This document shows positions 1,881-29,491 of a stretch of DNA of 56,495 nucleotides, piece after piece. Source of the DNA: an uncultured Pseudomonadota bacterium (GTDB taxonomy: Bacteria > Pseudomonadota > Gammaproteobacteria > Steroidobacterales > Steroidobacteraceae); the NCBI GenBank assembly GCA_903929455.1, contig CAIYVA010000151.1:1-56495 (forward strand), read 5' to 3'. Below the pieces are notes generated by a model. The model made no database searches. It had not been told where the DNA came from and saw only the letters and a list, made by a program, of their open reading frames with translations. A program made the translations under genes and the position numbers. Within the stretch, counting starts at the first letter, position 1. Every line of letters begins with the position of its first letter.

Positions 1881-1897
1881 CGCGCGCGATCATGGCG

Positions 1898-1943: not shown

Positions 1944-2033
1944 GTCGCTTGGTACGTACCGGTTACTCATCGACATCGTGCTCTGCGCCCGCGATACTCT
2001 TCACCTCGTGACGTCAGCAGAGAATCAGAATTC

Positions 2034-3347: not shown

Positions 3348-3352
3348 CTTGC

Positions 3353-7617: not shown

Positions 7618-7692
7618 TGACCCAGCACCGTTGGTGCGCGCAGAGACGCGGGATAGATCGACCTGCACTCTGCGATCGCACCGACGGAACCT

Positions 7693-9729: not shown

Positions 9730-9762
9730 CCCACAGTGAAAGTGACGGGATCGTCGGTATGT

Positions 9763-13316: not shown

Positions 13317-13345
13317 AGCTTCTAGGGTGTCAGTGTAGCGGGTAG

Positions 13346-15666: not shown

Positions 15667-15722
15667 TAGCTATATTATGAATATAATAAATTGCTACCAA
15701 ATATGCTTTTCTGATATAGCTA
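15667..15722. promoter_or_regulatory. Likely LysR operator in the divergent promoter region
   Basis: In the 106-base gap between the operon at 15621 and LysR at 15728, TAGCTATAT (15667-15675) is repeated inverted as ATATAGCTA (15714-15722). Within it lies a tighter inverted repeat, TATTAT (15673-15678) / ATAATA (15683-15688), with a four-base centre. AT-rich interrupted dyads containing T-N11-A spacing are typical LysR binding sites and this is the place one would expect the site of the divergent regulator. Confidence 0.6.
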
Positions 15723-15727
15723 ACACC

Positions 15728-16672
15728 ATGAACCTGCAACAACTGAGAACCTTCATCCGCATTGCGGAGCTAGGCTCGCTGAGCAAAGCCTCGGACCGCA
15801 TGCGGGTGGCGCAGCCGGCGTTGAGCCGTCAGATGAAGTTGCTGCAGGAGGAGGTGGGTGTGGTGCTGTTTGACCGCCATCGGGGTGGTATGCGCCTGAC
15901 CTTGGCCGGTGAGGAACTGTTACGCCGGGTGCCAGGGCTGATCCGCCAACTCGATCAGGTGTACGAAGACGTGCGTACCCATGCGGGGGCTACACGGGGT
16001 CAGGTGGTCTTTGGTGTGGTGCCGACGGTGAGCTATGTACTGGCGCGCCACCTAGCGTGCCGAGTGGCCGCTGACTTTCCAGATGTTCAGCTGCGAATTG
16101 TCGAGAGCTACTCAGGCCATCTGGTGGAGTGGCTGCAGCGGGGTGAGATCGACGCGGCCATCGTCTATGGCCCCGGCGAGAAGTTTCACATGCGAGCCGA
16201 AGAGCTACTGCTTGAGGATTTGGTGGTGGTTGGGCCACCTGATGCCGGTCTCGATCCGGCCACCCCCGTGTCGATGGCCGCGTTTGCGAACTTGACCTTG
16301 GTGCTGCCGAGTCGTCCACACGGTCTGCGGGTGGTCGTCGAATTAGCTGCTCATCGTGCTAAGACCAAGCTAGAGGTGCGTTTTGAAGCCGACTCCTTTC
16401 GTGTGCTAGTTGATTTGGTTGAGCAGGGTCTTGGTTATAGTGCGTTGCCACTGTCTGCGGTATCGCGAGAGGTAGCCCAGAAACGCCTGACGTACGCGCC
16501 GCTTATTGAGCCAAAGGTCACGCGTAATTTAATCCTAGGTATTCCCGATTCAACATTGTCGCGTGCGACGCAGACAGTGATCGCATTGACTCGCGAGGAG
16601 ATAGCGAAGTTAGTCAAGTCAGGGGCGTGGGATGCCCGTCTGCGCTATTCCTCCGATCGGACTGTTCGTTGA
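15728..16672 (+). CDS. LysR-family transcriptional regulator
   Basis: A 314-residue LysR regulator. The HTH occupies about residues 1-60 (M-N-L-Q-Q-L-R-T-F-I-R-I-A-E-L-G-S-L-S-K-A-S start; A-Q-P-A-L-S-R-Q recognition helix). The effector domain follows, including R-I-V-E-S-Y-S-G-H-L, a segment typical of the CbbR/nitrogen-assimilation-control-type subgroup. The ATG at 15728 gives the canonical LysR N terminus; an in-frame extension to 15677 would run through the operator and is rejected. It is divergent from the dehydrogenase operon and is its probable activator, responding to a pathway acid or CoA ester. Confidence 0.88.
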   Translation: MNLQQLRTFIRIAELGSLSKASDRMRVAQPALSRQMKLLQEEVGVVLFDRHRGGMRLTLAGEELLRRVPGLIRQLDQVYEDVRTHAGATRGQVVFGVVPTVSYVLARHLACRVAADFPDVQLRIVESYSGHLVEWLQRGEIDAAIVYGPGEKFHMRAEELLLEDLVVVGPPDAGLDPATPVSMAAFANLTLVLPSRPHGLRVVVELAAHRAKTKLEVRFEADSFRVLVDLVEQGLGYSALPLSAVSREVAQKRLTYAPLIEPKVTRNLILGIPDSTLSRATQTVIALTREEIAKLVKSGAWDARLRYSSDRTVR

Positions 16673-16680
16673 AGCCGAGC

Positions 16681-18090
16681 TTACCCGTCAGGATCAAGGC
16701 CCGCATCGGCCACGGCCACTAGTTGGATCTCACGATTGAGATCAAAGTGCCGATACGCGATCAGATAGATTAAAGTCGACACCGGCAATCCCACCAGCAT
16801 GGCGAAATCCGCGCCGCCCAGTGCCACTGCCGCCGGTCCTCGATAGACGCCGGTACTAAAGAACGGCACCATCACGAGGAATCCGCCGAAGTAAGCTGTG
16901 AGCCCGCGCCAGTTCCAGCGACCGTACATGCCGCGCGGATTAAATATCTCTCGTACGGAGTAATGACCGCGTCGCAAGTAGTAGAAGTCGACTAAATTAA
17001 TGGCGGTCCAAGGTGTGAATAGATAGCCAAGAATGACCAAGAACTCACCGAACTCAGTGGCAAAGTCTTTGGAAGCGCCAAGCGCCAGCACCCATGATAC
17101 GGCGAGTAGAATAATTAACGTGACTAAGCGATGCCAGAGCGCAGGACGTAGCGGACGAAGGGAGTCTGCGACGCTCAATAGTGTCAGCGATGCGCTATAG
17201 AACATTAGTGTTGAGGTGGTGATGAGGCCCAGTACTGATGCGATCAAAAAGGGGCCACCGGATCCAGGCAGAATCAAGTCTGCGGCAGCTTTAAGCGCTG
17301 CGGTTAATTCCATTTTCGGAAATAGCGCAATCGCTACGGAGCCGATCAGTGTGGGCCACGTCGTGCCGATAAACGAACCGACATAAGTCCACCAGAAAGA
17401 AGCGCGCACGCCGACGTTTTTTGGTAGATAGCGCGAATAATCAGAGACAAAGATGGACCAAGACAATTGGTAACCGGCGGTGGTCAGCAGTTGGCTCAGG
17501 AAAGGCACCAAGCGAAAGTCAGCGACGTTAAATTGTTCTGCGGGAAAGTGCGCCCCGAATGCAGCGACGGTCATGACCACAAACGTGGCGAGTAGCAGAT
17601 ACGCTAAGACGCGTTGCGCAGTGTGGATAACGTCATAGCCAATCACTGCAAGTGCCGCCGCCAATAAGCCGACTGCGATCATTGTGTGTGGGCGGTTAAA
17701 GCCACCGAGCGTATAAAGCGTATCGGCGGTCAGTACCTGATTGAACGCGCAGTAGCCGATGAAGGTGATCAGTGCTACCCCCCAGACTAAGAGGGCACCC
17801 ACATAGCCGAACTGCGGCCGTGATTGGATCATCTGCGGCAGACCGAGTTGCGGGCCTTGCGTCGAGTGGAAGGCCATGAAAAAGGTGCCGAACGCGCAGC
17901 CGATAATCACTGCGATGGCAGTCCAAAACAAGTTACCGCCCGCTAGGATGCCGACTGCACCACTAGCGATGGTCGCTAAATGAGCGCCGCCTGTGAACCA
18001 TACCGGCCATAGATGCCAAAGCTTACCGTGCCGCTCACGGATCGGCACATAGTCGATCGATCGTTGCTCGATGAGCGGGTTATTAGCCAC
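16681..18090 (-). CDS. NCS1-type permease (purine-cytosine permease family)
   Basis: A 469-residue inner-membrane transporter with about twelve hydrophobic segments. The N terminus (I-D-Y-V-P-I-R-E-R-H-G-K-L-W-H-L-W) and the S-D-Y-S-R-Y-L-P motif are typical of the cytosine permease (CodB-like) branch of the NCS1 family, which moves nucleobases, hydantoins or related small nitrogenous compounds with a cation. It is the last gene of the minus-strand run from 26981 and probably imports that pathway's substrate. An NCS1 carrier in a carnitine-like locus is unusual, since betaine compounds normally enter by BCCT or ABC systems. The real substrate may therefore be a related cyclic or amino compound. 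Confidence 0.85.
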   Translation of the reverse strand: MANNPLIEQRSIDYVPIRERHGKLWHLWPVWFTGGAHLATIASGAVGILAGGNLFWTAIAVIIGCAFGTFFMAFHSTQGPQLGLPQMIQSRPQFGYVGALLVWGVALITFIGYCAFNQVLTADTLYTLGGFNRPHTMIAVGLLAAALAVIGYDVIHTAQRVLAYLLLATFVVMTVAAFGAHFPAEQFNVADFRLVPFLSQLLTTAGYQLSWSIFVSDYSRYLPKNVGVRASFWWTYVGSFIGTTWPTLIGSVAIALFPKMELTAALKAAADLILPGSGGPFLIASVLGLITTSTLMFYSASLTLLSVADSLRPLRPALWHRLVTLIILLAVSWVLALGASKDFATEFGEFLVILGYLFTPWTAINLVDFYYLRRGHYSVREIFNPRGMYGRWNWRGLTAYFGGFLVMVPFFSTGVYRGPAAVALGGADFAMLVGLPVSTLIYLIAYRHFDLNREIQLVAVADAGLDPDG

Positions 18091-18119
18091 TAAGCCTCCT
18101 GTAAAGAACGCATCACGGT

Positions 18120-19007
18120 TTAGCTGCGTGGCTTAAGACCCATTTTGATGCGCGCGTCCTTAGCTGACATCACGCGACCGCCTAATTGGTCGATGATATG
18201 CGCGGCCTTCTCCACCAACTGGCCGTTGGAAGCGAGCACGCCTTTCTTAAGATATAAGTTGTCTTCGAGTCCGACCCGGACGTTGCCGCCTAAGATCATG
18301 GCTTGTGCCGCCATGGGCATTTGCATGGTGCCTGGGCCGAAGGAGAACCAATTGGCATCGGCGGGGAGTGCATTGGTCATCGCCATCATTGAGTTGGTGT
18401 CAGCGCCGGCGCTCCACGCCAGACCTAAGCAGACCTGGAAAAGTGGCGGCGCGTCGATCAAGCCCTGATCGATCAGGTGGCGCGCGAGTCGAATCTGACC
18501 GAGATCGAACACTTCAAGTTCTGGCTTCACGCCGAGCTCTTGCACTCGTTTCGCCATCGCGGCGAGACAGGCGCTGGTATTGATGTAGACCTCATGGCCC
18601 ATACCGAAGTTGAGCGTGCCGCAGTCAAGACTGCACACATCGGGCAGCAACTCCTCGACGTGCGCGAGGCGTTCCATCGCGCCCACAATATCTGTCCCCG
18701 GGCCGCCGATGGCTGGGTTTTCAGCGCTCGGCACGAAGTCACCTCCCATACCGGCGGTTAAGTTAATGATGACGTCGGTTCCTTTGGCGCGCACCAATTC
18801 AACGACTTGGCGAAATAGTTTGGGATCACGACTGGCTTTACCGTTTTCAAGGTTTCTGACGTGAATGTGCACCATGGCAGCGCCGGCATCGGCGGCATCG
18901 AAGCAGGCTTGGGCAATTTGCTTTGGCGTCACGGGCAGGTCAGGGTGCTTGCCGATCGAGTCGCCAGAGCCTGTCACCGCACAAGTAATCATCACATCTC
19001 TGTTCAT
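18120..19007 (-). CDS. BKACE family beta-keto acid cleavage enzyme (DUF849), dehydrocarnitine cleavage-like
   Basis: A 295-residue BKACE enzyme, a zinc-dependent TIM barrel that condenses a beta-keto acid with acetyl-CoA and releases acetoacetate plus a new CoA ester. Zinc ligands are visible as H47 and H49 in M-V-H-I-H-V-R and E248 in R-V-G-L-E-D-N, with R244 and D249 as the expected catalytic partners. With the carnitine-dehydrogenase-like gene at 21986, the natural reading is cleavage of 3-dehydrocarnitine to betainyl-CoA and acetoacetate, as in Pseudomonas carnitine catabolism. Other cationic or amino beta-keto acids are possible because BKACE specificity varies widely. Confidence 0.85.
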   Translation of the reverse strand: MNRDVMITCAVTGSGDSIGKHPDLPVTPKQIAQACFDAADAGAAMVHIHVRNLENGKASRDPKLFRQVVELVRAKGTDVIINLTAGMGGDFVPSAENPAIGGPGTDIVGAMERLAHVEELLPDVCSLDCGTLNFGMGHEVYINTSACLAAMAKRVQELGVKPELEVFDLGQIRLARHLIDQGLIDAPPLFQVCLGLAWSAGADTNSMMAMTNALPADANWFSFGPGTMQMPMAAQAMILGGNVRVGLEDNLYLKKGVLASNGQLVEKAAHIIDQLGGRVMSAKDARIKMGLKPRS

Positions 19008-19026
19008 GATCCGGTCTCCACACTAG

Positions 19027-21144
19027 TCATTGGGGTTCTGAAAATCGAAGTAGCGCGTCTACCGCAATGATACCGTACCCTTTAGGCAGCACGATCAGCG
19101 GATTGACATCAAGTTCTTGAATGGTGCCCCAGTGGGCACAGGCAAAGGCGGCGATGGCCAAAATGGCATCTATGGCAGCGGCGCGATCCCCTTCTGGTCG
19201 GCCACGAAAGCCTTTTATTAGGGTGGCCACTTTGAGTCGGCTCAGTGCTTGATCAACCGCGGCGCGGTCTGTGGGTAGCAGCAGACTCACACTGTCGCCT
19301 ACCAGCTCAACGAGGATTCCCCCGGAGCCGATCACTAGCGTTGGACCAAATTGCGGATCACGATGGATACCGACGATGAGCTCTGCCACGGTAGGGGTGG
19401 CCATCGACTCCACAATGAATTGAGTTGCCTGAAGACCGCGTGCGGCTGCGGCCTTCATGATGGCGTCAGCCGCCGCCTCCACATCAGAAGCGCTCGTTAG
19501 ACCGATATGAACAGCGGCCAGTTCAGACTTGTGTATGAAAGCGCTCCCGCAGGCTTTGAGCGCCACCGGAAATCCGATCTCGCATGCGGCGATACCGACG
19601 CCTGGGCGGGCAACCAACTGGCCGCTCGGGACCGTAAGGCCGGCAGCGCTTAAGCGCTGCTTGCTCTCCCACTCATCCAAGAAAGTTCCGGCAGACCCTA
19701 CTGGCGCGTCGTCTGCAAACTTTGGCAGTGGGGTGGCGAGCTGCGCCTGACGGTGTGTGTGATAGCGTCCCGCGGCGGCGATCGAAAACAGTGCGTCGTC
19801 GAGTCCTTGTAAGGGTACGACACCTGCCTCAATGAGTCGGGTGCGTAGCGCCTCTGGGATCAACTCCGACACCGTGCAAGCCAAAAAAGCGGGCATGCCG
19901 GTGGCTGCATGAGCGGCGATGAAAGCCTCGAGACAGTCGATCCACTCGGCGACTTCCGGGGCATCGATGGTCGGATGGTCATACACCAGCAGTGCCGCAT
20001 GATGCGTACCGGACAAAGAGGTAGTGAAGCAACGCTCCATCCCGGCCTTGTCGCCCCAGATCGAGGTGTTGTAGTCAAATGGATTCGACACCGTCACGTA
20101 ACCTGGGAACATGGCCACAAGTGATTGTGTTTGTGTCGCTGAGAAAGGCGGGGTGGTGAGACCGTAGGTGTCACACAGATCGGCGAGAATACCCGCTTCG
20201 CCACCGGAGCAAGACAGGGTCACGATGTCCGTGCCTTTGATCAGTGGTGCCACATCGAATAGTTTTAGCGTCTCCAGCAGACAGTTAAGCGAGTCAACAC
20301 GGATAATGCCGAGACGTTCGAAGAGCGCGTCGTATAGCGTATCTGAGCCGACCAGTGAACTGGTGTGTGAACTGGCACGCTCAGCACCCGCTAGCGTGCG
20401 TCCAATCTTCATAACCACAATGGGAATGCCGCGCTCGAGTGCGCGCTGCGCCATGCGCGCGAATGCGGCGAGATCATCAAGGCCCTCAAGCAGCATACCG
20501 ATCGCGCGCACTCGAGAATCTTCGAGCAATGCCTCTAGGTAGTCCGCGGGACCCAGCACCGCCTGATTGCCCGCGCAGATAACGTGTGTGAACTGCACCG
20601 AGCGCTCGTTCATTGTGAGATTCATGGCGACGTTGCCGCTCTGTGAGATCAGCGCTACGCCACGATCCACCGGACGGCCGCCAAACACATAAGGCCACAG
20701 CGCGAGTTGGTCGACATAGTTAATAAACCCGAAGCAGTTGGGGCCCACCAAGGGCATCGCATCTGCTGCCTCGATGAGCTGCTGCTGTAGTTCGATCCCC
20801 TCGCCGCCCACTTCTGCGAATCCTGCGGCGTAGCACACGCAACCACCAGCACCCAGAGCCGCTAAGCTTCGCACCACCTCGATGGTTGCACTGCGATTGA
20901 CGCCAACATACGCGGCATCGGGGACAACCGGGAGTGCCTCAATGCTGGGATAGCAAGGTACCCCACCCACCGTTTTCTTGGATGGATGCACCATGTACAA
21001 CTCACCCTTAAAGCCCGCCTCACGGCAACGGGTGAGCGCCATCTCGGCGATTTTTCCGCCAATAAAGACGATGCTGCGTGGCGCGAGCAGTCGATGGAGT
21101 CGCGAATGCGAGGGCGCCGATGTTTGCAGTGGAATCTTGCTCAT
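19027..21144 (-). CDS. NDP-forming acyl-CoA synthetase (acetate-CoA ligase family)
   Basis: A 705-residue single-chain acyl-CoA synthetase of the ADP-forming type. Domain order: CoA-binding Rossmann domain (about 15-110, starting L-L-A-P-R-S-I-V-F-I-G-G), succinyl-CoA-synthetase-like and ligase domains (about 150-450, with S-Q-S-G-N-V-A and S-C-S-G-G-E-A-G), and a C-terminal ATP-grasp (about 490-705, beginning E-W-E-S-K-Q-R-L-S-A-A-G). It makes an acyl-CoA from acid, CoA and ATP via a phosphohistidine. It sits between the CaiD-like hydratase and BKACE genes, with a 16-base gap to the former. It would provide the activation step of the pathway, for example gamma-butyrobetaine to its CoA ester. 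Confidence 0.87.
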   Translation of the reverse strand: MSKIPLQTSAPSHSRLHRLLAPRSIVFIGGKIAEMALTRCREAGFKGELYMVHPSKKTVGGVPCYPSIEALPVVPDAAYVGVNRSATIEVVRSLAALGAGGCVCYAAGFAEVGGEGIELQQQLIEAADAMPLVGPNCFGFINYVDQLALWPYVFGGRPVDRGVALISQSGNVAMNLTMNERSVQFTHVICAGNQAVLGPADYLEALLEDSRVRAIGMLLEGLDDLAAFARMAQRALERGIPIVVMKIGRTLAGAERASSHTSSLVGSDTLYDALFERLGIIRVDSLNCLLETLKLFDVAPLIKGTDIVTLSCSGGEAGILADLCDTYGLTTPPFSATQTQSLVAMFPGYVTVSNPFDYNTSIWGDKAGMERCFTTSLSGTHHAALLVYDHPTIDAPEVAEWIDCLEAFIAAHAATGMPAFLACTVSELIPEALRTRLIEAGVVPLQGLDDALFSIAAAGRYHTHRQAQLATPLPKFADDAPVGSAGTFLDEWESKQRLSAAGLTVPSGQLVARPGVGIAACEIGFPVALKACGSAFIHKSELAAVHIGLTSASDVEAAADAIMKAAAARGLQATQFIVESMATPTVAELIVGIHRDPQFGPTLVIGSGGILVELVGDSVSLLLPTDRAAVDQALSRLKVATLIKGFRGRPEGDRAAAIDAILAIAAFACAHWGTIQELDVNPLIVLPKGYGIIAVDALLRFSEPQ

Positions 21145-21160
21145 GCCTGTCTATTTAATT

Positions 21161-21961
21161 TTATTGGCTCTTGAAATCAGCGGTGCGCTTGTCCACGAAA
21201 GCTTGCACGCCTTCTTTGGCATCGCCCGAGGCGAGCATCCGTTCATAGGCCGCAAACTGACCCGCGCGCATCGTCGTATACGCGGCACGTGGCGAGAGCC
21301 CCTCGATGCCCGAAGTCACTTCTTTCATGGCCTCGACCGCGAGCGGTGCCGCTGCGGCGATTTGGTCAGCCCACTCGCGCGCCTTAGTCATTAGATCGGC
21401 CGCCGGCACCACCAAGTTAACCAGACCATAGTGAGCCGCTTCTTGTGCGCTCAACCAACGACCGAGATAGAGCATTTCCATCGCAATGTTGCGTGGAATG
21501 CGTCGAGGCAGGCGTTGCACAGCACCGGCGTCCGGTACTAGGCCGAGTGGCAATTCTGGCAGGCGAAATTGCACATGGTCAGCCGCGATCAGTAAATCGC
21601 AGGACAGTGCGATCTCGAACCCACCGCCGATCGTTTTGCCGTTAAGGGCAGCAATCACAGGCTTATTGAGACCCCAGAACTCGGTGAGTCCAGCGAATCC
21701 GCCCGTGCCGTAGTCGGTTTCCCACCAACGGTTGAGCGCCATCTCGCCGCTATTCACCGCTTTTAGATCCCAACCGGCACAAAACACTTTGTCGCCACCG
21801 CCGGTGATGATGCCGACGCGGAGCGTCGGATCATCGCGCAGTGCGCCGAAGGCCTCGCCTAGCTTGCGGCTAGTGGCGAGATCGATGGCATTCACCGGTG
21901 GTCGGTTAATGGTGACCTCAAGCACGCCGCCACGGCGTTCAACCCGTACTTCGTCCGTCAT
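21161..21961 (-). CDS. Enoyl-CoA hydratase, CaiD (crotonobetainyl-CoA hydratase)-like
   Basis: A 266-residue crotonase-family enzyme. Both catalytic glutamates are present: E116 in G-G-G-F-E-I-A and E136 in L-P-E-L-P-L-G. The stretch from F-C-A-G-W-D-L-K-A through G-T-G-G-F-A-G-L-T-E-F and L-N-K-P-V-I-A-A-L-N-G follows E. coli CaiD almost motif by motif, including the unusual G-W-D-L-K and G-G-F-A-G-L-T-E elements. CaiD hydrates crotonobetainyl-CoA to L-carnitinyl-CoA. The neighbouring carnitine-dehydrogenase-like gene starts 24 bases upstream on the same strand. I am fairly sure of the CaiD likeness, less so of the exact substrate. Confidence 0.85.
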   Translation of the reverse strand: MTDEVRVERRGGVLEVTINRPPVNAIDLATSRKLGEAFGALRDDPTLRVGIITGGGDKVFCAGWDLKAVNSGEMALNRWWETDYGTGGFAGLTEFWGLNKPVIAALNGKTIGGGFEIALSCDLLIAADHVQFRLPELPLGLVPDAGAVQRLPRRIPRNIAMEMLYLGRWLSAQEAAHYGLVNLVVPAADLMTKAREWADQIAAAAPLAVEAMKEVTSGIEGLSPRAAYTTMRAGQFAAYERMLASGDAKEGVQAFVDKRTADFKSQ

Positions 21962-21985
21962 CCTAATCTCCCGACTGGTATTTGT

Positions 21986-22939
21986 TTAAGTGAGTTCCGG
22001 CGGTGCCCGCAGCACTTTCAGAATACTGATGAGATACGCATCGCGATCGCGGATCATGTCGTTGATGCTGCGACCAGCCGACTCCGCTACGCAACCGTCG
22101 ATCACTTTGGCGCGCAGCTCTGCGGTAAGTTCCGGCGCCTCGAGGCGCGTCCACGGCCATTTGAGTGACGGCGCGAACTGGTCAAGCACGTGCGCCATGC
22201 CGCCATCACCACCAGCCAAATGATAGTTCATGCCAGGGCCGGTAATCGCCCAGCGAAGCCCCGGGCCATAGGTAATGGCGTCATCGATCTGCTGCACGGT
22301 GGCCTCCCCTGCGTTCACCATGTGTAGCATCTCGCGCCACATGGCTTCCTGAAGACGTGTGGCGATAAATCCAGGCACTTCGCGATCAAGCTTGACGGGA
22401 CGCTTACCAAAAGCCGTGTAGAAGGCAACCGCCCAGTCGACCGCGTCAGCATTTGTCTTGTCGCCGCCAACCACCTCCACCAATGGCACCAGATAAGGTG
22501 GATTGAAGGGGTGGCCTACCACGGTGCGATCGGGATGTTGGCATTTGACCTGCATGTCGGTCATCTTAAGCCCCGAGGTGCTTGAGAGCAGAACGATGTC
22601 TTTAGGTGCCGCCGCGTCGATGCGAGCGAGCGTGTCTATTTTAGATTGCAGTGCCTCAGGACTGTTCTCTTGCACCACATCGACGTCGGCGACCGCTGCC
22701 TCGAGTGTGTCCACAAAGCGGATGCGATCAACCGATGCACCGGGTCGCAAGCCCAGTCTGACGAGTGTTGGCCATGCGTTGTCGCACATCTTTTGGAAAC
22801 GCTTACGGCAGTCTGGGTGCGGGTCATAAGCAATGACGTCGAGTCCTTGTGCAAGAAAATGCAAGGCCCAGCCACCGCCGATCACGCCCGTTCCGATGAT
22901 GCCCACGCGCGTAACGCGATCTGGTGCTTTGCGACTCAT
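21986..22939 (-). CDS. lcdH: L-carnitine dehydrogenase-like 3-hydroxyacyl dehydrogenase
   Basis: A 317-residue NAD-dependent dehydrogenase of the 3-hydroxyacyl-CoA dehydrogenase fold. The NAD-binding G-T-G-V-I-G-G-G is at 16-23 with an acidic D39 at the end of strand 2 (NAD rather than NADP). The catalytic dyad is H143 in V-G-H-P-F-N-P-P and E155. The C-terminal half (W-R-E-M-L-H-M-V-N-A-G-E-A-T, then I-D-D-A-I-T-Y-G-P-G-L-R-W, then H-L-A-G-G-D-G-G-M-A-H) carries the motifs I know from L-carnitine 3-dehydrogenase rather than from fatty-acid enzymes. The product, 3-dehydrocarnitine, is what the BKACE gene product would cleave. It is the short form without the fused thioesterase. Confidence 0.8.
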   Translation of the reverse strand: MSRKAPDRVTRVGIIGTGVIGGGWALHFLAQGLDVIAYDPHPDCRKRFQKMCDNAWPTLVRLGLRPGASVDRIRFVDTLEAAVADVDVVQENSPEALQSKIDTLARIDAAAPKDIVLLSSTSGLKMTDMQVKCQHPDRTVVGHPFNPPYLVPLVEVVGGDKTNADAVDWAVAFYTAFGKRPVKLDREVPGFIATRLQEAMWREMLHMVNAGEATVQQIDDAITYGPGLRWAITGPGMNYHLAGGDGGMAHVLDQFAPSLKWPWTRLEAPELTAELRAKVIDGCVAESAGRSINDMIRDRDAYLISILKVLRAPPELT

Positions 22940-22964
22940 GACAGATTATTCCTCAACAGGGTGT

Positions 22965-24125
22965 TCATTTTTCATAAGGCCGTAAGATCGCACGCGAAAT
23001 AATGTGACGCTGGATCTCGCTCGTGCCATCCCAAATGCGCTCGATACGCGCATCGCGCCAGAAGCGTTCAATCGGCAGGGTGTTCATTAATCCCATACCG
23101 CCAAAGATCTGCACTGCGTTGTCAGTCACGCGCGAGAGCATCTCAGCCCCGAACAGTTTAGCCATGGCCGCATCTTGATCCGTCATGAGGCCTTGATCGA
23201 ACTTCCAGGCGGCTTTCAGTGTGAGCATCTCTGCTGCGGCGATATCGACGGCCATGTCGGCCAGTTTGAAGCCGGTGCCTTGGAAGCGACCGATGGTCTG
23301 CCCAAACTGCTTGCGGGTGCCAGCCCATTCAGAGGCCATCTCAAAGACGCGATTTGCTCGGCCAACCGCGAGGGCGCCGATGGACAGTCGGGCGGGTGAT
23401 AACCACTTGCTAGCCAGTTGAAAGCCCTCGCCAGGTGCACCTAACATCTGCCGCGCCGGCACTCGGCAGTCATCAAAAAATAGTTCCGCGTGATCATAGC
23501 CGCGATGTGCGGTGCAGACGGGGCCGCGACGCGCTGTAAAGCCCTTCGTGCCTTTATCCACCAAGAAGGCGCTGATCTCCGCGCGCTTGCCGCGCGCCGA
23601 CTCGGTTTCGCCGGTCACTGCAAACAGCAGCACGTAGTCAGCACGCATGCCAAAGCTAATGAAGTGTTTGGACCCGTTGATGACATAGTCATCACCTTTT
23701 CGGACGGCGCGTGTGGTCATCGCAGACAGATCGGAGCCAGCACCTGGCTCAGTGAAGGCGATGCAGTCGAGACGTTCGCCGCGCACGGTTGGCTCAAGAT
23801 ACGTTTTAATCTGTTCGGGTGAGCCCGCTTCCAAAATGTTGCTTGGCCTATGCACGATGTAATGCAGTGCGTAGGACACCCATCCGAACTCACGCTCGAC
23901 CAATGCAAACGTCAGTGCATCAAGGCCACCACCGCCGTGTTTCTGGGAGATGTTCGCAGCAAATAAGCCCGCTTCAATAGAGCGCTGGCGGATTTGAGCG
24001 AATAGATCATCGGGCACGTAGTCCTGTGCTTCCACCACGTCTTCATGGGGCAGTAGTTCCCTGCGAACGAAGTTGTGGGCGACGTCGATAATCAGTTGCT
24101 GTTCTTCGCTGACCGAAAAATCCAT
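22965..24125 (-). CDS. Acyl-CoA dehydrogenase with Asp at the catalytic-base position
   Basis: A 386-residue acyl-CoA dehydrogenase with all three domains: N-terminal helices, the A-F-T-E-P-G-A-G-S-D-L-S FAD/substrate motif, and the C-terminal helices with R-K-Q-F-G-Q-T-I and Q-I-F-G-G-M-G-L. The usual base in the E-G-T/S motif is Asp here (D366 in I-W-D-G-T-S-E-I-Q-R-H). It has no Glu at the alternative isovaleryl-type site (P-A-R instead). In the operon it would form the enoyl-CoA that the CaiD-like hydratase hydrates, for example gamma-butyrobetainyl-CoA to crotonobetainyl-CoA. The substrate is inferred from neighbours. Confidence 0.87.
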   Translation of the reverse strand: MDFSVSEEQQLIIDVAHNFVRRELLPHEDVVEAQDYVPDDLFAQIRQRSIEAGLFAANISQKHGGGGLDALTFALVEREFGWVSYALHYIVHRPSNILEAGSPEQIKTYLEPTVRGERLDCIAFTEPGAGSDLSAMTTRAVRKGDDYVINGSKHFISFGMRADYVLLFAVTGETESARGKRAEISAFLVDKGTKGFTARRGPVCTAHRGYDHAELFFDDCRVPARQMLGAPGEGFQLASKWLSPARLSIGALAVGRANRVFEMASEWAGTRKQFGQTIGRFQGTGFKLADMAVDIAAAEMLTLKAAWKFDQGLMTDQDAAMAKLFGAEMLSRVTDNAVQIFGGMGLMNTLPIERFWRDARIERIWDGTSEIQRHIISRAILRPYEK

Positions 24126-24156
24126 GGGGTCCTCAGTGGTTCCGGATCAGGCCGGT

Positions 24157-24948
24157 TTAGGTGTAAGTACGAGTTAAAAAGGGTAGCAGCGCACGAAGCA
24201 CTGCATCGGGGTCCTCCGCGAGTGCCATGTGGCGAAGTCCCGGTAGGATAACGCAGTCAGCGCCTGGCACCTTGGCCGCAGCCTTTTGCGCCATCTCAGG
24301 CGAGTTGCCAAAATCCTCACCGCCGGTCATCACGAGCGTCGGGCAACGGATGGCGCCTATGGCGCTGACAAGTTCCGCATCCGCCTCGGCTAGCACGTGG
24401 TAGGCCGCGGCGAATGAGGCGGGATCATTGGCGGTGACCCAAGTGCGCACTTGCTCAAGGGTCTCGGGGCTTCGTGCGGCAAAGTCTGCTGTAAACCAAC
24501 GTTGTAGGGCAGGTCCGATGGTAGCCGCTGGACCTGCTGTGCGGGCAAGTTGAACGCGCGTGCGGATGGCTGCCCGCTCCTCGTCGCTGCGGTTGTAAGC
24601 CGAGTGCAGCACTCCGAGTGCCGCAGTCCGCGTCGGATGCGCGAGCGCGAAGGCTTCGGCAATCAGCCCACCAAGGGAAAAACCGATGACGCCCACGCGT
24701 GTTAAGCCGAGGTGATCGATGAGATGAGCTAACTGCGCGACCAAATCGGCCATGGTGAGATCGGCTGCTTTGCGGTAGCTATCACCATGACCGATTAAAT
24801 CGTAGCTAATGACACGGTAATCACGCGCTAGTGCAGGAGTGACCCACTGCCACATCGCGTGATGAAGACCCAGGCCATGCACCAGAACAACGGGCAACCC
24901 ATGACCGGTGACCTCATATCGCGTGCCCTGTGGATCGATGAGTCCCAT
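24157..24948 (-). CDS. Alpha/beta hydrolase
   Basis: A 263-residue alpha/beta hydrolase with a complete catalytic triad: S91 in the nucleophile elbow G-F-S-L-G-G, D212 in G-G-E-D-F, and H240 in G-L-R-H-M. The oxyanion motif is V-H-G-L-G. Overall form resembles 3-oxoadipate enol-lactonase and RutD-type hydrolases. It is two bases downstream of the monooxygenase gene stop and 31 bases before the dehydrogenase. Possible jobs are hydrolysis of a monooxygenase product (ester or carbamate) or of a CoA thioester such as carnitinyl-CoA or betainyl-CoA, for which no other thioesterase is present. Confidence 0.85.
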   Translation of the reverse strand: MGLIDPQGTRYEVTGHGLPVVLVHGLGLHHAMWQWVTPALARDYRVISYDLIGHGDSYRKAADLTMADLVAQLAHLIDHLGLTRVGVIGFSLGGLIAEAFALAHPTRTAALGVLHSAYNRSDEERAAIRTRVQLARTAGPAATIGPALQRWFTADFAARSPETLEQVRTWVTANDPASFAAAYHVLAEADAELVSAIGAIRCPTLVMTGGEDFGNSPEMAQKAAAKVPGADCVILPGLRHMALAEDPDAVLRALLPFLTRTYT

Positions 24949-24950
24949 AC

Positions 24951-26012
24951 TTAACCAGTAACCGATCCGCTCTCAGCGAAGGCAGGCATGACCTCATCAA
25001 TGAACAGTTTGAGCGAGGATTTCTGGTGTTTTAGCGGCAAGCCGTAGGCTGAGTTGAAACAGAAGTGATCGACGCCCATGGCTTCGTACACTTTCAGTTT
25101 TTTGATCACTTGTTCGGGTGTCCCGAGCGGTAGATGCTGCATGAGGTTGTCGTGCGCGTATTCGGCCTGATTGGTGAACAGCGACGGATCTGGATCCATC
25201 GGGAAGCCATTGACGACGGGCCCAAGACCGCGGAACAGATTTTCGAACTGCCTGCCTTGACGTTGGATCGCTGCGATAAAAGGTGTCTCGCCACCGGCTT
25301 TCGCATAGACGCCGGTATGGCGCATGGTCATGAAGCGGGGGCGTTTGACGCCGGGGCCTGCCAATGCGAGACCTGCTTCAAAGCGACGCATGTACTCTTC
25401 GAGTTCAGCGTCTGGTCGCACCATAGGCCAGGTCATGATGTGATAGCCCTCTTTCAGAGCCGCATTGAAGGTGCCAGGGTCGCGCGCTGCCACCCAGATC
25501 GGGGGGTGCGGTGTTTGTAGGGGTTTTGGGCATGAGGTGGCGGCTGGGAAGGACCAGTATTTGCCTTCATGGGCATAGTCGCCGAGCCATAGTTTTTTGA
25601 GGGCAGGTAGCATCTCAAGCATCATGGGCACGCCGAGATGTTGATCCATACCGCCCATCATGCGATCGAATTCGCGCTGGTAAGCGCCACGACCGATGCC
25701 GAATTCGAGTCGACCGCCCGACAACAGATCAAATAGCGCGGCCTCGCCTGCAAGTTTGATCGGGTGCCAGTAGGGGGCGACCACCACGGCGGTCCCCAGA
25801 CGAATACGCGTGGTGCGGGCGGCCCAGTGCGCCAGTAACTGAAAAGGCCCTGGTGCGATGGTCATCTCGAGGGCGTGGTGTTCTGCGGCCCAGGCGATGG
25901 CAAAGCCGCCCGCATCGGCCATTTCGACCATTTCGGTGACATGGCTTGAGACCTCGCGCATGTCGTCACTGTCGTCCATGCGCTCGAGATTGATGACGAG
26001 ATCGAACTTCAT
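24951..26012 (-). CDS. Luciferase-like (LLM class) flavin-dependent monooxygenase
   Basis: A 353-residue single-domain TIM-barrel monooxygenase of the bacterial luciferase group, which uses reduced flavin and oxygen. Recognisable elements are W-A-A-E-H-H near residue 42, the R-L-G-T-A-V-V-V-A-P-Y-W-H-P strand, F-D-L-L-S-G-G-R-L-E-F-G-I-G-R-G and P-P-I-W-V-A-A-R-D-P. It needs a partner flavin reductase, and one is encoded at 28532 on the divergent operon. Its position ahead of the alpha/beta hydrolase and behind a RidA gene recalls the Rut pyrimidine pathway, but the protein is not RutA itself. The 157-base gap upstream of it contains an inverted repeat. Confidence 0.87.
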   Translation of the reverse strand: MKFDLVINLERMDDSDDMREVSSHVTEMVEMADAGGFAIAWAAEHHALEMTIAPGPFQLLAHWAARTTRIRLGTAVVVAPYWHPIKLAGEAALFDLLSGGRLEFGIGRGAYQREFDRMMGGMDQHLGVPMMLEMLPALKKLWLGDYAHEGKYWSFPAATSCPKPLQTPHPPIWVAARDPGTFNAALKEGYHIMTWPMVRPDAELEEYMRRFEAGLALAGPGVKRPRFMTMRHTGVYAKAGGETPFIAAIQRQGRQFENLFRGLGPVVNGFPMDPDPSLFTNQAEYAHDNLMQHLPLGTPEQVIKKLKVYEAMGVDHFCFNSAYGLPLKHQKSSLKLFIDEVMPAFAESGSVTG

Positions 26013-26083
26013 GAGAACCCGCTCCGATAAGGATAAATATCGCAGCTACCAACGGCGGGCGGCCACGAAATTCATTACACCGC

Positions 26084-26138
26084 ACTTGCGGAAAACAAGT
26101 AAACGGTATCACAGGTTCCCGTTGCCGTAACCGCAAGT
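26084..26138. repeat. Inverted repeat between the RidA and monooxygenase genes
   Basis: ACTTGCGG (26084-26091) recurs inverted as CCGCAAGT (26131-26138); nested inside are AACGG (26102-26106) and CCGTT (26119-26123). This lies in the only long gap (157 bases) of the minus-strand operon. It could be a hairpin damping read-through from the RidA gene or an operator for a second promoter in front of the monooxygenase gene. Confidence 0.35.
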
Positions 26139-26169
26139 TCACGCGAGAAAGATGCCTCGGGGCGGCCCT

Positions 26170-26559
26170 TTAGAGGGGTTTGTAGGCCACCACTTCGACC
26201 TCAACGCGCACATCGACCAACAGTTCGCTGATGACGGCGGAACGCGTCGGCGGGTCGATGGGGAAGTATTCGGCGTACACCGCGTTGAAGCCGGGAAAGT
26301 CGGCGCGTTCGCGTAGCCAGACCATGGATTTGACGACATCACGGAGCGAGCAATCAGCTTCCGTGAGCGTGTCTCGGATCAGTTCCAGCACGATGCGGGT
26401 CTGTTCTTCGATCGTGCCTGTGGTGACCACAGCGCCCTCGCGCATCGGAACTTGGCCCGTCAGGAAGACGAAATCCCCTGCACGGATCGCCCGTGACAGC
26501 GACAGGACTCGGCCGTTGATCGAGAGCGGAGCGCCAATGACACGAGCCTTTTTTTGCAT
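26170..26559 (-). CDS. RidA/YjgF/RutC-family protein
   Basis: A 129-residue Rid-family protein, the group that hydrolyses reactive enamines and imines and includes RutC. The key arginine is present in P-P-T-R-S-A-V, followed by V-E-V-E-V-V-A-Y, the family's closing strand. It overlaps the preceding AhpD-like gene by one base (TAATG), so translation is coupled. Near a flavin monooxygenase and hydrolase, it probably clears or converts an imine or aminoacrylate-like intermediate. That suggests a nitrogen-bearing substrate. Confidence 0.88.
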   Translation of the reverse strand: MQKKARVIGAPLSINGRVLSLSRAIRAGDFVFLTGQVPMREGAVVTTGTIEEQTRIVLELIRDTLTEADCSLRDVVKSMVWLRERADFPGFNAVYAEYFPIDPPTRSAVISELLVDVRVEVEVVAYKPL

Positions 26560-26981
26560 TATTTAGGCTCTGTTTCAGCGGGTGCGTCGAGTTCTGCGAA
26601 CGCCGCTTGAGCGATCCGGACGCTGTCCACAGCGGCCGGTATGCCGCAATAGATGCCCGCTTGTAGGAATACCTCAATGATTTCTGCTCGTGTGACCCCA
26701 TTGTTTAACGCGCCCAAGATGTGCGTGCGCAGTTCGTGTGGGCGGTTCAGTGCGGTCAACATGCCTAGATTCAGCAGGCTTCGTTCTCGGCGGGCGAGTC
26801 CTGGCCGTGACCAGACGCTGCCCCAGCAGTATTCAGTGACCAGTTCCTGCAAGGGCCATGTGAGCTCGTCTGCCGCCGCCAGCGCTCGGTCGACATAGGC
26901 GTCACCAACGACCGCGCGTCGTATGGCGAGCCCTTCCTGGAACTTGGCGGAGACCTTGTGTTTGGGAATTTTTTTAGCCAC
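26559..26981 (-). CDS. Carboxymuconolactone decarboxylase/AhpD-like protein
   Basis: A 140-residue all-helical protein of the CMD family. It has R-R-A-V-V-G-D-A-Y-V-D-R-A-L, the W-x-R-P-G-L motif, R-R-E-R-S-L-L-N-L-G-M-L-T-A-L, H-E-L-R-T-H and the C-terminal A-G-I-Y-C-G-I-P-A-A-V-D. It is of the 4-carboxymuconolactone decarboxylase type rather than peroxide-reducing AhpD, since no C-x-x-C pair is seen. The GTG at 26981 is chosen because the family's N terminus starts there and the frame further upstream would run into the divergent aldehyde dehydrogenase gene. It is the first gene of the long minus-strand run. The reaction is unknown. Confidence 0.8.
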   Translation of the reverse strand: MAKKIPKHKVSAKFQEGLAIRRAVVGDAYVDRALAAADELTWPLQELVTEYCWGSVWSRPGLARRERSLLNLGMLTALNRPHELRTHILGALNNGVTRAEIIEVFLQAGIYCGIPAAVDSVRIAQAAFAELDAPAETEPK

Positions 26982-27036
26982 CGTAGGCCTCGTGAGTCTG
27001 CCGGCTGTCCGGCGTCGTGAAGTTAGGAGTGAGCGG

Positions 27037-28521
27037 ATGGTCGAACTCAAACAATATCAGATGCTGATCGACGGCGAGTGGGTTGACGCAGAGGACAACC
27101 GGCGCTTCGAGAGTATCAATCCCGCCACCGGCGCGGCCTGGGCCACTATCCCGGACGCTAGCGCTAACGACGTCAACCGTGCTGTGGAGGCTGCGGCACG
27201 CGCCTTCTCAAGTGGGCCCTGGTCCAAGATGACGGCCACCGAACGGGGCCGCTGCCTGCGACGGCTAGGCGATCTGGTGGCGGCGCAATCCGAGGCACTC
27301 GGCCGCATCGAGTCGATCGATACCGGCAAGCTCTATAACGAAACGCGCTGGCAGGCCGCCTACATCGCTGAGTACTTTCATTACTACGCGGGCTTAGCCG
27401 ACAAGGTTCATGGCGACACTCTGCCGATCGACAAACCGAATCTATTGGTCATGACGTTACGTGAGCCACTGGGTGTTGTCGCGGCCGTTGTACCCTGGAA
27501 CTCACAACTCTTTCTAACGGCCGTCAAGATGGGGCCGGCACTCGCGGCAGGCAACACCGTGGTGCTTAAAGCGTCGGAGCATGCTTCAGCAGCCATGCTG
27601 GAGTTTGGTCGTTTAATTGCCGAGGCGAAGATCCCGCCCGGTGTGGTGAACATTATATCTGGGCTTGCTGAGCCATGCGGTCGAACACTCACGACGCACC
27701 CAAAGGTGGCGCGTATCAGCTTCACCGGTGGACCTGAGACTGCGCGACACATCATCCGACATTCTGCAGAAAATCTTGCAGAGGTATCGCTCGAGCTCGG
27801 CGGCAAGTCGCCTGTCATCGTATTCGAGGATGCTGATATTGAGAGCGCCGTCAATGGTGTGGTGGCCGGCATCTTTGGCGCCAGTGGGCAAAGCTGCGTG
27901 GCAGGTTCTCGCTTGTATGTACACGAGAACATTGCCGAGGAATTTCTAGCGCGCCTGACCGCTATCGCCACGCAGATACGTATCGGTGATCCGCTGGGAG
28001 ATAAGACTCAAATGGGCCCGCTCGCCACGCGCGGTCAGCTGGCCAAGATTGAAAAAGAGATTGCACGCGCCTGTGCGGAAGGCGCAACGATACGTTGCGG
28101 TGGACGGGCGCCTGCCGATCAAAAAAGTGGCTGGTTTTTTGAGCCCACCATCCTCGAGTGTCCGACTCAGCAAACCGCGATCATGGATACGGAGCTGTTT
28201 GGGCCTGTGCTCAGTGTATTGCGCTTTCGTACGGAAGAGGAAGTCACTGCGCTTGCAAATGATTCTGCTTACGGATTGGCGGCTGGTATCTTCACACGCG
28301 ATGGTGCGCGGTCGCTGCGTATGACCAAGGCGTTGCGCTGCGGCATCGTCTGGGTCAATACGTACCGCGTGGTCTCACCAGTCGCTGAGTTTGGCGGTTT
28401 TAAGAACAGCGGCTATGGACGTGAGAGTGGTATGCAAGCGATCTATGACTACACGCGCGTCAAGACGGTGTGGCTTAATACCTCAAGCGATCCGATGGCT
28501 AACCCCTTCGTGATGCGCTGA
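27037..28521 (+). CDS. Aldehyde dehydrogenase
   Basis: A 494-residue NAD(P)-dependent aldehyde dehydrogenase with the catalytic set complete: N155 in V-P-W-N, E253 in L-E-L-G-G-K and C287 in G-Q-S-C. The ATG at 27037 has TAGGAG seven to twelve bases upstream. It belongs to the group containing betaine-aldehyde, gamma-aminobutyraldehyde and trimethylaminobutyraldehyde dehydrogenases. Divergent from the CMD gene with only 55 bases between starts, it shares a control region with the long minus-strand operon. In a gamma-butyrobetaine scheme it could make the acid that the CoA synthetase activates. The aldehyde itself is not known. Confidence 0.9.
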   Translation: MVELKQYQMLIDGEWVDAEDNRRFESINPATGAAWATIPDASANDVNRAVEAAARAFSSGPWSKMTATERGRCLRRLGDLVAAQSEALGRIESIDTGKLYNETRWQAAYIAEYFHYYAGLADKVHGDTLPIDKPNLLVMTLREPLGVVAAVVPWNSQLFLTAVKMGPALAAGNTVVLKASEHASAAMLEFGRLIAEAKIPPGVVNIISGLAEPCGRTLTTHPKVARISFTGGPETARHIIRHSAENLAEVSLELGGKSPVIVFEDADIESAVNGVVAGIFGASGQSCVAGSRLYVHENIAEEFLARLTAIATQIRIGDPLGDKTQMGPLATRGQLAKIEKEIARACAEGATIRCGGRAPADQKSGWFFEPTILECPTQQTAIMDTELFGPVLSVLRFRTEEEVTALANDSAYGLAAGIFTRDGARSLRMTKALRCGIVWVNTYRVVSPVAEFGGFKNSGYGRESGMQAIYDYTRVKTVWLNTSSDPMANPFVMR

Positions 28522-28531
28522 CGTTACGCTT

Positions 28532-29491
28532 ATGAAGCTGATCGATGCCAAAGACCTGAGGAAGGCCTTCGGTTCATTCGCGACCGGCGTGACGGTAGTG
28601 ACGACTGAATCCGACGCCAGTGGTCCGGTTGGGTTTACCGCCAACTCGTTCACCTCAGTGTCTCTTGATCCGCCATTGCTGCTGGTGTGCTTGGCGCACG
28701 GCATGCGGTGCTTCCCATTATTCGAGCAGACCCAGCGATTCGCGGTGAATATTCTAGCCGATGACCAGCAAGAAATTTCCAGCACTTTCGCATCACGCGG
28801 GGCTGACAAGTTTGCGGCCGTGCAGTGGCGCGCTAGTCACACGGGAAGCCCACTGCTTGAGGGCGTGGCAGCCTGGTTTGACTGCGAAGTTCACCAACGA
28901 ATATTGGCGGGTGATCACACCATCCTGATCGGACGAATTGTTGATTACGCTTACGAGAATCGAGCCCCGCTCGGCTTTTGCGGCGGCGGTTATTTACGCT
29001 TTGGTCTTCTGCAGCAAGCAGTAGAGTCGAGTCATCGGCATGGCCGTGTTCGGGTGGGAGCAATACTCGAATGCGCCGAAGGCCTGTTGCTTGAGGAGCA
29101 TTCGGATACCGGCCACTTCTCGGTTCCCGCCGCTACGCGCCTCGGGAGTTCGGGTGCAAAAGGGGGTTTGTTCGGTCACTGCGCTGCAGCGGGCTACACC
29201 ATCACACTGCCCTTTCTGTTCGCTGTGTATGAGGAAGCGGATACGCAATTTGTCATTCATCGGGGCACCGCGATTCGGCAGGCGCCGAGTGACTTGGCGC
29301 ACCAGCCATGGGTAGGGTCGCTACGTGTTTTCTCACTAGATAACATTCCTTGGGAAAAGATCGCCAGTTCGCCGGAGCGGATGATGCTGGAGCGATATCA
29401 GCGTGAACGCGCCACTAACGTCACCGGTATTTACGTCGGTACAGCCGAATCGGGTGATCTGCATACCGTGACAGCAACACGTCCGCTGTAA
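28532..29491 (+). CDS. Flavin reductase with a C-terminal Nudix-like domain
   Basis: A 319-residue protein in two parts. Residues 1-165 form a complete flavin reductase domain of the HpaC/RutF (DIM6/NTAB) type: A-F-G-S-F-A-T-G-V-T-V-V-T-T, G-F-T-A-N-S-F-T-S-V-S-L-D-P-P-L-L, and G-D-H-T-I-L-I-G-R-I-V-D-Y. Residues 172-319 start like a Nudix domain (R-V-R-V-G-A-I-L-E-C-A-E-G-L-L-L-E) but lack the Nudix box with its R-E-x-x-E-E core, so catalysis there is doubtful. The gene starts 10 bases after the aldehyde dehydrogenase. It presumably supplies reduced flavin to the luciferase-like monooxygenase encoded divergently. Confidence 0.85.
   Translation: MKLIDAKDLRKAFGSFATGVTVVTTESDASGPVGFTANSFTSVSLDPPLLLVCLAHGMRCFPLFEQTQRFAVNILADDQQEISSTFASRGADKFAAVQWRASHTGSPLLEGVAAWFDCEVHQRILAGDHTILIGRIVDYAYENRAPLGFCGGGYLRFGLLQQAVESSHRHGRVRVGAILECAEGLLLEEHSDTGHFSVPAATRLGSSGAKGGLFGHCAAAGYTITLPFLFAVYEEADTQFVIHRGTAIRQAPSDLAHQPWVGSLRVFSLDNIPWEKIASSPERMMLERYQRERATNVTGIYVGTAESGDLHTVTATRPL

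Follow-up and report, generated by a model that had tools for sequence, protein, structure and literature searches.

The window analyzed here is a 56,495-nucleotide stretch (positions 1 to 56,495) of contig CAIYVA010000151.1 of assembly GCA_903929455.1 (2.44 Mb in 244 contigs), from an uncultured member of the Steroidobacteraceae (Gammaproteobacteria), and it carries a gene system in which a flavin-dependent monooxygenase set is joined to a set of carnitine-type CoA enzymes. At its center lies a minus-strand run (26981-16681) coding for a PcaC-like decarboxylase-family protein (CMD), a RidA-family deaminase, a luciferase-like monooxygenase (LLM), an alpha/beta hydrolase, an acyl-CoA dehydrogenase (ACAD), a carnitine-dehydrogenase-like 3-hydroxyacyl-CoA dehydrogenase (HAD), a CaiD-like enoyl-CoA hydratase (ECH), an NDP-forming acyl-CoA synthetase (ACD), a beta-keto acid cleavage enzyme (BKACE) and an NCS1-family carrier, and it diverges from an aldehyde dehydrogenase (ALDH) and a flavin reductase (Table 1). 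An earlier note, made from the letters of this DNA, had named these twelve families and the divergent arrangement, and open reading frames (ORFs) together with Pfam and NCBIfam matches bear out both, the ten proteins of the minus strand reaching best Pfam E-values between 2.4e-21 (CMD) and 4.7e-94 (BKACE). The run is tightly packed, with 2-31 bp between ORFs, except for 157 bp between the RidA and LLM genes and a 1-base overlap of the RidA and CMD genes. About 55 bp separate the likely starts of the divergent CMD and ALDH genes, as read from the translations. The note had closed the run at 16681; the system more probably spans about 0.9-29.5 kb, including genes at 897-4896 and 11071-15621, because a contiguous plasmid cluster of Aminobacter holds relatives of those genes.

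Table 1. Genes of the catabolic stretch and its right-hand neighbor, in window coordinates.
Gene product	Position	Strand	Remarks
HpcH/HpaI CoA-ester lyase	897..1880	+	CitE and itaconate C-C lyase RipC are the top NCBIfam models, with scores under cut-off; a likely, not proven, member
MmgE/PrpD family protein	2034..3347	+	54% identity to MmgE of Aminobacter cluster
PF06684 'amino acid synthesis' protein (AAsyn)	4294..4896	-	Recurrent partner of the LLM set
MmgE/PrpD family protein, second	11071..12459	-	34% to Aminobacter MmgE
MaoC-type hydratase	12456..13316	-	43% to Aminobacter MaoC; only match in the genome
CoA-transferase family III (CaiB-like)	13346..14638	-	Top model succinate-glutarate CoA-transferase, below cut-off; 51% to Aminobacter CaiB; N-terminus of ORF as listed overlaps ACAD2
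Acyl-CoA dehydrogenase 2 (ACAD2)	14464..15621	-	66% to Aminobacter ACAD2
LysR-type regulator	15677..16672	+	95% identity in sister contig (L063/L093)
NCS1-family carrier	16681..18090	-	Pfam match
BKACE	18120..19007	-	Carries Arg173
ACD	19027..21144	-	ATP-grasp_5, Succ_CoA_lig and CoA_binding_2 domains in a single chain
ECH, CaiD-like	21161..21961	-	Pfam and NCBIfam matches
HAD, carnitine-dehydrogenase-like (LcdH-like)	21986..22939	-	Misses the two curated carnitine cut-offs; residue 194 is Thr, not Asp
ACAD (acyl-CoA dehydrogenase 1)	22965..24125	-	Pfam and NCBIfam matches
Alpha/beta hydrolase, PcaD-like	24157..24948	-	Pfam and NCBIfam matches
LLM flavin-dependent monooxygenase	24951..26012	-	Pfam match
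RidA-family imine/enamine deaminase	26170..26559	-	Pfam match
CMD, PcaC-like	26559..26981	-	GTG start at 26981; listed ORF opens at 27050
ALDH	27037..28521	+	Likely ATG start at 27037; listed ORF opens at 26923; NCBIfam match
Flavin reductase, C-terminal extension	28532..29491	+	NCBIfam match
Glutamate dehydrogenase	29655..30917	+	Next gene, same strand as flavin reductase; membership uncertain

The union of the monooxygenase set with the CoA/BKACE set is real and conserved. A scan of species genomes for the LLM gave 76 loci, whose genes were called by codon usage and onto which the window proteins were mapped at fixed identity thresholds; 67 loci carry an LLM at least 54% identical to that of the window, and 9 a more distant one. 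Among the 67, the HAD is found in 41, the ECH in 40, the BKACE in 33, the ACAD in 29 and the ACD in 28, together with the ALDH in 43, the hydrolase in 39, RidA in 37, the flavin reductase in 17 and CMD in 12. These counts are lower bounds because each flank was cut at 10 kb or by the end of its contig; in loci of at least 17 kb, the HAD is present in 27 of 42. HAD, ECH and BKACE are found in none of the nine loci with a more distant LLM at the same thresholds. In L023, L026 and L034 (our locus numbers), the ALDH lies beyond the first locus, yet on the same contig and about 9 kb from the HAD; further out, each of the three has RidA, the hydrolase and CaiB, at which the L034 stretch ends; two also have PF06684, and one has a flavin reductase match. 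AAsyn relatives are present in 46 of 87 scanned loci, some of which overlap in the same genomes. The operon is not a chance assembly, because L002 and L063 preserve its gene order almost intact and the same genes recur in loci titled Alpha- and Gammaproteobacteria, in which the LLM is followed by ECH, HAD and BKACE on one strand.

The combination recurs in many other bacteria. In the genus of the window, the LLM occurs in 2 of 15 genomes, and the same two hold a 93-100% identical HAD. A broad sample of 398 genomes yielded four LLM matches at E 1e-105, namely the window itself and three that are 49-52% identical. Linkage of LLM and HAD is found in isolates (Aestuariivirga, Parasedimentitalea, Aminobacter), in many metagenome-assembled genomes and in 13 AG-named records of uncultured Alphaproteobacteria, the LLM of which is 72-74% identical to that of a SAR116-titled contig; SAR116 is a marine group according to the abstract of PMC12262181. 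Some clusters carry additional genes. A transketolase pair lies within the ECH-HAD-BKACE-LLM cluster of L013, L016, L018, L024 and L033, four of which also have a gene of the ATC hydrolase family (families tested on one representative each). The ALDH/RidA part of L017, L019, L020 and L022 has a gene of the aromatic-amino-acid-lyase family and a HisA-like one at its flanks (families assigned from the copies in L022); a histidine or ergothioneine link drawn from these genes in L017-L022 was dropped, the next genes (HtpG, thioredoxin, Lon-type) looking ordinary.

Plasmids provide the most compact versions of the system. On pSR3 of Aminobacter sp. SR38, a contiguous cluster begins with genes for a CoA-ester lyase, MaoC, CoA-transferase, ACAD, MmgE/PrpD, PF06684 protein, flavin reductase, hydrolase and RidA, from which diverge those for ALDH, LLM, ECH, HAD, a GlxA regulator, BKACE, an ABC carrier, ACAD, an NDP-forming ligase and an acetoacetate-CoA ligase. 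The latter scores above its model cut-off and is placed after the CoA genes, as the chemistry of BKACE predicts. Plasmid pW43B of Parasedimentitalea marina follows the same order without the lyase/MmgE part and with a serine hydrolase and CMD in addition; the cluster is nearly contiguous there and in L023, L026 and L034. The ALDH of the window is 68-71% identical to the linked copies of the two plasmids and 56% identical to a Leisingera copy. For the left-hand genes, identity to the Aminobacter proteins runs from 66% for ACAD2 and 62% for the PF06684 protein down to 28% for the lyase (Table 1), and ACAD2 lies near linked genes also in L003 and L029. Membership of the left-hand genes is likely, not proven, because they are scattered over 897-15621 with a TonB receptor (5194-7617) and a protein with tetratricopeptide repeats (TPR) and a sulfotransferase domain (678 amino acids, 7693-9729) interposed. 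In four records (L030, L036, L043 and pW43B), CoA-transferase family III and a flavin reductase domain form a single fused protein, as judged from Pfam domains in L043 and from in-frame adjacent matches in the other three (L096 is the same contig as L030), and this fusion ties the CoA half to the monooxygenase half independently of gene order. Sarcosine-oxidase genes lie near the Parasedimentitalea cluster, a possible link to N-methylglutamate dehydrogenase (Mgd); no further methylamine genes occur among the listed features across the record start.

The CoA enzymes diverge from those of carnitine degradation. The earlier note had drawn a line from gamma-butyrobetaine through carnitine to dehydrocarnitine, prepared for by the monooxygenase set; the joining of the two sets holds, since they travel together in different genomes, and the carnitine line itself is undercut by a second dehydrogenase in the same genome, by model cut-offs, by phylogeny and by residues. 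The NCBIfam models nearest to the window HAD are carnitine dehydrogenases, both missed (NF005471, 361.2 of 414 bits; NF005716, 301.6 of 592 bits), and the linked HADs of L088 and L096 likewise fail the carnitine cut-offs. The HADs of separate carnitine operons in genomes G044 and G053 pass NF005716 with 747.7 and 730.3 bits, as does a copy elsewhere in the window's own genome with 614.3; this last copy (G000:C38:8755-10233, L091) is a curated-level carnitine 3-dehydrogenase of 492 amino acids, followed by an ORF of 224 amino acids and an ACAD. G053 holds a complete canonical carnitine operon and the linked HAD/BKACE set on the same contig. In a tree of 52 HADs (from which 28 loci, mostly near-copies, and L099, on a very long branch in a narrower tree, were left out), 15 canonical carnitine dehydrogenases stand across a 100/100 branch from the window HAD, on whose side are 28 linked rows, 7 of other context and 2 plasmid rows labelled canonical (Citricoccus and Sinorhizobium mexicanum). 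The narrower tree gives the same canonical/linked split at 90/71; a single group of linked HADs seen there was given up when the addition of plasmid relatives broke the group and kept the split. A plain carnitine or gamma-butyrobetaine operon is thus weakened as an explanation by the own-genome carnitine 3-dehydrogenase and the HAD tree.

Residues separate the two groups as well, the counts being confined to linked and canonical rows. HAD position 194, presumably the active-site Asn position of 3-hydroxyacyl-CoA dehydrogenases, is Thr in all 43 linked rows and Asp in 18 of 19 canonical ones, and position 148, which we take to follow the catalytic His motif, is Pro in 43/43 and Val in 19/19, respectively. 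Rows of Citricoccus and Streptomyces, which belong to neither group, have Asn194 with the linked-type Pro148, and a BKACE with the canonical Trp. On the Citricoccus plasmid (L131:13030-21737), a BKACE, a HAD 58% identical to that of the window, a thioesterase, an ABC carrier and a serine hydrolase stand together with no LLM match; this could be a related CoA set that is entered in a different way.

The window BKACE, the only match in its genome, reaches 315.2 bits with PF05853 (gathering score 24.8), and its motifs HIHVR, PELE and VRVGLED have equivalents in the aligned relatives; we take the metal and catalytic residues of the family to be HxH, E, R and E-D. Position 173 is Arg in all 36 linked BKACEs and Trp in 8 of 10 canonical ones, Arg occurring also in one canonical row and Glu in the BKACE of S. 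mexicanum, a row of neither group; 173 is a candidate substrate-pocket position. The loss of an acidic residue from the HAD and of an aromatic one from the BKACE would fit a substrate that bears no free trimethylammonium group. In a BKACE tree from which 20 loci were left out, a branch (91/83; recovered in 89% of bootstrap trees) sets 22 linked rows apart. BKACE is treated in PMC12133276, PMC12871164 and PMC4922564; PMC12871164 reports Tyr at one position in all BKACE sequences, where our alignment, on our own matching of that position, has Phe in window and carnitine-operon BKACEs alike. The window ECH is 65-66% identical to the linked copies of Aminobacter and Parasedimentitalea, against 43-47% to the two canonical ones compared. 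Its score with the CaiD model NF002936 (297.8 bits; cut-off 500) is matched by those of two canonical carnitine-operon hydratases, also under the cut-off (294.0 and 302.3).

The carriers point to a small zwitterion and do not tell which one. Related clusters hold carriers of betaine kind, in keeping with the earlier note: L003 and L004 carry BCCT, and others have ABC carriers with SBP_bac_8 binding proteins, glycine-betaine-type ABC carriers being among those of the related clusters. The NCS1 protein of the window matches PF02133 (125.9 bits; gathering score 23.5) and misses the narrower TIGR00800 (99.1 of 353.1 bits).

On this basis, we tentatively favor, at slightly less than even confidence, a catabolic island in which a trigonelline-like ring cleavage feeds a carnitine-like, non-carnitine CoA/BKACE module, acting on a small N-heterocycle that is a zwitterion, most likely an N-methylpyridinium compound such as homarine, trigonelline or one of their relatives. 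The data establish the gene families, their linkage across genomes, the fusion and the distance from carnitine enzymes; each chemical step that follows, and the substrate, we infer. The NCS1 carrier would import the N-heterocycle, and the flavin reductase and LLM would cleave its ring with O2 to an N-formyl semialdehyde. The ALDH would convert the aldehyde to a carboxylate, the alpha/beta hydrolase might deformylate the product (or open a lactone), and RidA could hydrolyze an enamine or imine, upon which the amine would leave, with CMD and the PF06684 protein in supporting roles. The liberated acid would be converted to its CoA ester by ACD, CaiB or both, desaturated by the ACAD, hydrated by the ECH and oxidized at C3 by the HAD, before BKACE and acetyl-CoA would cleave it to acetoacetate and a shorter acyl-CoA. 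The left-hand MmgE, CaiB, ACAD2, MaoC and lyase proteins may degrade a branched C5 dicarboxylate, yielding acetyl-CoA and pyruvate in the manner of itaconate degradation.

Several observations weigh against this proposal. Of a first group, most lean toward the CoA set being truly a carnitine line, or that of a close quaternary-amine analogue whose cation is kept, with the monooxygenase set handling another part of the molecule or making the precursor. The linked BKACEs nest within superclades of carnitine-operon BKACEs (34 and 36 rows; 88/88 and 96/90), in which the carnitine label of L131, L132 and L141 is putative; the placement outside the carnitine clades, which the earlier note had named as the refutation of its line, is therefore found for the dehydrogenase and not for the BKACE. 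The linked HADs do not form one exclusive clade, as HADs of Citricoccus, Streptomyces and Sinorhizobium, with no LLM match in the fetched stretches, fall among them. The ACAD shows no clear separation, being 50-56% identical to canonical carnitine-operon copies and 48-52% to the linked copies of the two plasmids. The NCS1 carrier shares 57% identity with one encoded next to a canonical carnitine operon of Novosphingobium. The closest curated families of the ECH and HAD are carnitine ones, the CoA set consists of five families that also make up the separate canonical operons of G044 and G053, and betaine-type carriers and GlxA/AraC regulators occur in related clusters. What speaks against a carnitine line is the canonical 3-dehydrogenase encoded separately in the same genome, the coexistence in G053 of the full canonical operon with the linked set, the HAD scores and the 100/100 split, and the fixed replacements of Asp by Thr and of Trp by Arg, so that we regard it as credible and still rather unlikely. 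The Novosphingobium carrier (L136:3429-4841), encoded on a plasmid and annotated as a cytosine permease, adjoins the operon, a hint that carnitine-like compounds are among the substrates of some NCS1 carriers.

The remaining objections to a ring cleavage that feeds the CoA module come from monooxygenase sets that stand by themselves. Plasmids of Agrobacterium fabrum C58 and Azospirillum oryzae carry flavin reductase, ALDH, LLM, hydrolase, CMD and PF06684 genes with glycine-betaine/proline ABC carriers; in the eight Marinomonas-type loci (L070-L077), the set comprises PF06684, hydrolase, flavin reductase, LLM and ALDH genes, and six of these loci add a BCCT carrier; and on a Leisingera plasmid, genes for an FAD oxidoreductase, RidA and a second ALDH come after the same core. 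In Agrobacterium, Azospirillum, most Marinomonas-type loci and Leisingera, this core is without linked HAD, ECH and BKACE, and the window LLM is 50-51% identical to those of the first two and only 38-40% to those of the last two. The make-up of this core is that of the trigonelline pathway of Acinetobacter baylyi, which speaks for the proposed ring cleavage. Eleven Rhodobacter-like loci (L039-L042, L044, L048, L053, L056, L061, L068 and L069, of which L061 ends just past the LLM) have LLM, ALDH and hydrolase and no linked HAD. In six of these genomes that were searched (L039, L041, L042, L048, L053 and L069), the sole HAD match at E 1e-40 is 38-40% identical, in a frame of 492-590 amino acids; that of G044 (L069) passes the carnitine 3-dehydrogenase cut-off and sits in a separate operon of BKACE, LcdH, ACAD, ACD and ECH. 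The upper set can thus exist without a linked CoA set, which weighs against strict dependence; the dispersal into unrelated operons that the earlier note had set against its own proposal is not the rule, with these eleven loci, which lack a linked HAD, as the contrary cases. Moreover, the upper set alone would take homarine or trigonelline to 2-oxoglutarate or succinate semialdehyde, and thus into central metabolism, so that the CoA set would be superfluous for them. Either the substrate is richer in carbon or the modules are merely neighbors. In the latter case, two or three independent pathways (of homarine or trigonelline type, carnitine-like and itaconate-type) would lie side by side, sharing regulation and not intermediates, and carnitine-type sets are indeed also found alone. 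We consider this unlikely in view of the fusion of CoA-transferase and flavin reductase, of the recurrent same-strand order of LLM, ECH, HAD and BKACE, and of the lineage of their own that the linked BKACEs form, even in G053 with its canonical operon.

A further version can be sketched. One pathway might dismantle one compound from both ends, namely a pyridinium (nicotinate-like) ring with an acid side chain, that is, carnitine with a ring replacing the trimethylammonium group: the CoA/BKACE set would shorten the side chain to acetoacetate, the LLM set would cleave the ring and the itaconate-type set would dispose of the ring carbons, a branched C5 unit. An extra ring carboxylate would then explain Arg for Trp in the BKACE and Thr for Asp in the HAD. 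We find this version distinctly doubtful. A very improbable alternative to any N-heterocycle makes the LLM a type II Baeyer-Villiger enzyme with a cyclic ketone as its substrate, the lactone being opened by the PcaD-like hydrolase and oxidized by the ALDH, and the dicarboxylate degraded by the CoA set. The likeness of hydrolase and CMD to PcaD and PcaC (TIGR02427, 168.2 of 255.85 bits; TIGR02425, 148.2 of 155.7 bits; both under cut-off), the dicarboxylate-type CoA-transferase models among the top matches and Arg173, which would suit a distal carboxylate, are compatible with it; RidA in 37 of the 67 loci and betaine-type carriers in several related clusters indicate nitrogen instead, and no alcohol dehydrogenase is found among the window genes of the run.

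The preferred island, with its N-heterocycle, appears as a conserved composite of known pathway types that is described nowhere in the literature searched, searches for the combined cluster having returned nothing relevant. If the proposal is true, it names a carbon and nitrogen source, a zwitterionic nitrogen compound, used by these bacteria through a widespread pathway; it also shows how carnitine-type enzymes are re-aimed, and would stop the annotation of these genes as carnitine metabolism. The glutamate dehydrogenase next to the flavin reductase is the same neighbor as in the sister contig (89-90% identity), and at 41515-42837 a DUF5690 protein gene adjoins one resembling phosphodiesterases/nucleotide pyrophosphatases.

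Among known systems, the gamma-butyrobetaine/carnitine route (LcdH, BKACE) shares with the window an ACAD, a CaiD-like ECH, an LcdH-like HAD, BKACE and an NDP-forming synthetase in a single run, as well as the GlxA/AraC regulator of related clusters. Unlike the enzyme of that route, the window HAD has no fused thioesterase, scores under the cut-offs and lies across the 100/100 branch; fixed residues differ in HAD and BKACE, and a cut-off-passing carnitine 3-dehydrogenase is encoded elsewhere in the genome. The Rut pyrimidine pathway (RutA, C, D, F) resembles the window in its combination of LLM, RidA, alpha/beta hydrolase, flavin reductase and permease, whereas the CoA module is particular to the window. 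It was rejected on scores, all far under cut-off (RutC, 57.4 of 169.1; RutD, 86.3 of 238.5; RutF, 102 of 254.75 bits), and RutA was absent among the 25 listed of 30 model matches of the LLM. Itaconate degradation (CoA-transferase, hydratase, RipC/Ccl lyase) has counterparts in the CaiB, MaoC and HpcH/HpaI lyase genes near the window cluster, contiguous in Aminobacter. It differs in that the matched models stay under cut-off (window lyase with RipC/Ccl model NF038242, 178.9 of 375 bits), that ACAD2 and MmgE/PrpD are extra, and that the lyases of the window and Aminobacter share only 28% identity.

The closest parallels to the upper set concern methylpyridinium betaines. Homarine, one such betaine, is degraded by environmental bacteria (Ferrer-Gonzalez et al., 2026, cited in PMC13390433), and both homarine and Mgd are treated in PMC13390433. 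All five tgn-type genes (flavin reductase, LLM, ALDH, hydrolase and AAsyn) are present in the window, the AAsyn gene 20 kb from that of the LLM, and they stand close together in Aminobacter. The trigonelline (tgn) pathway of Acinetobacter baylyi, an account that goes back to Perchat and coworkers in 2018, reportedly comprises a two-component ring cleavage, an ALDH and a hydrolase; the flavin reductase, the LLM, the ALDH, the alpha/beta hydrolase and a conserved hypothetical protein are what the window has in common with it. In the clusters that resemble tgn, the carriers are of the BCCT or betaine ABC kind. In contrast to tgn, the window shows only one aldehyde dehydrogenase among its genes examined at 9.8-31.6 kb, and it adds RidA and the CoA/BKACE module.

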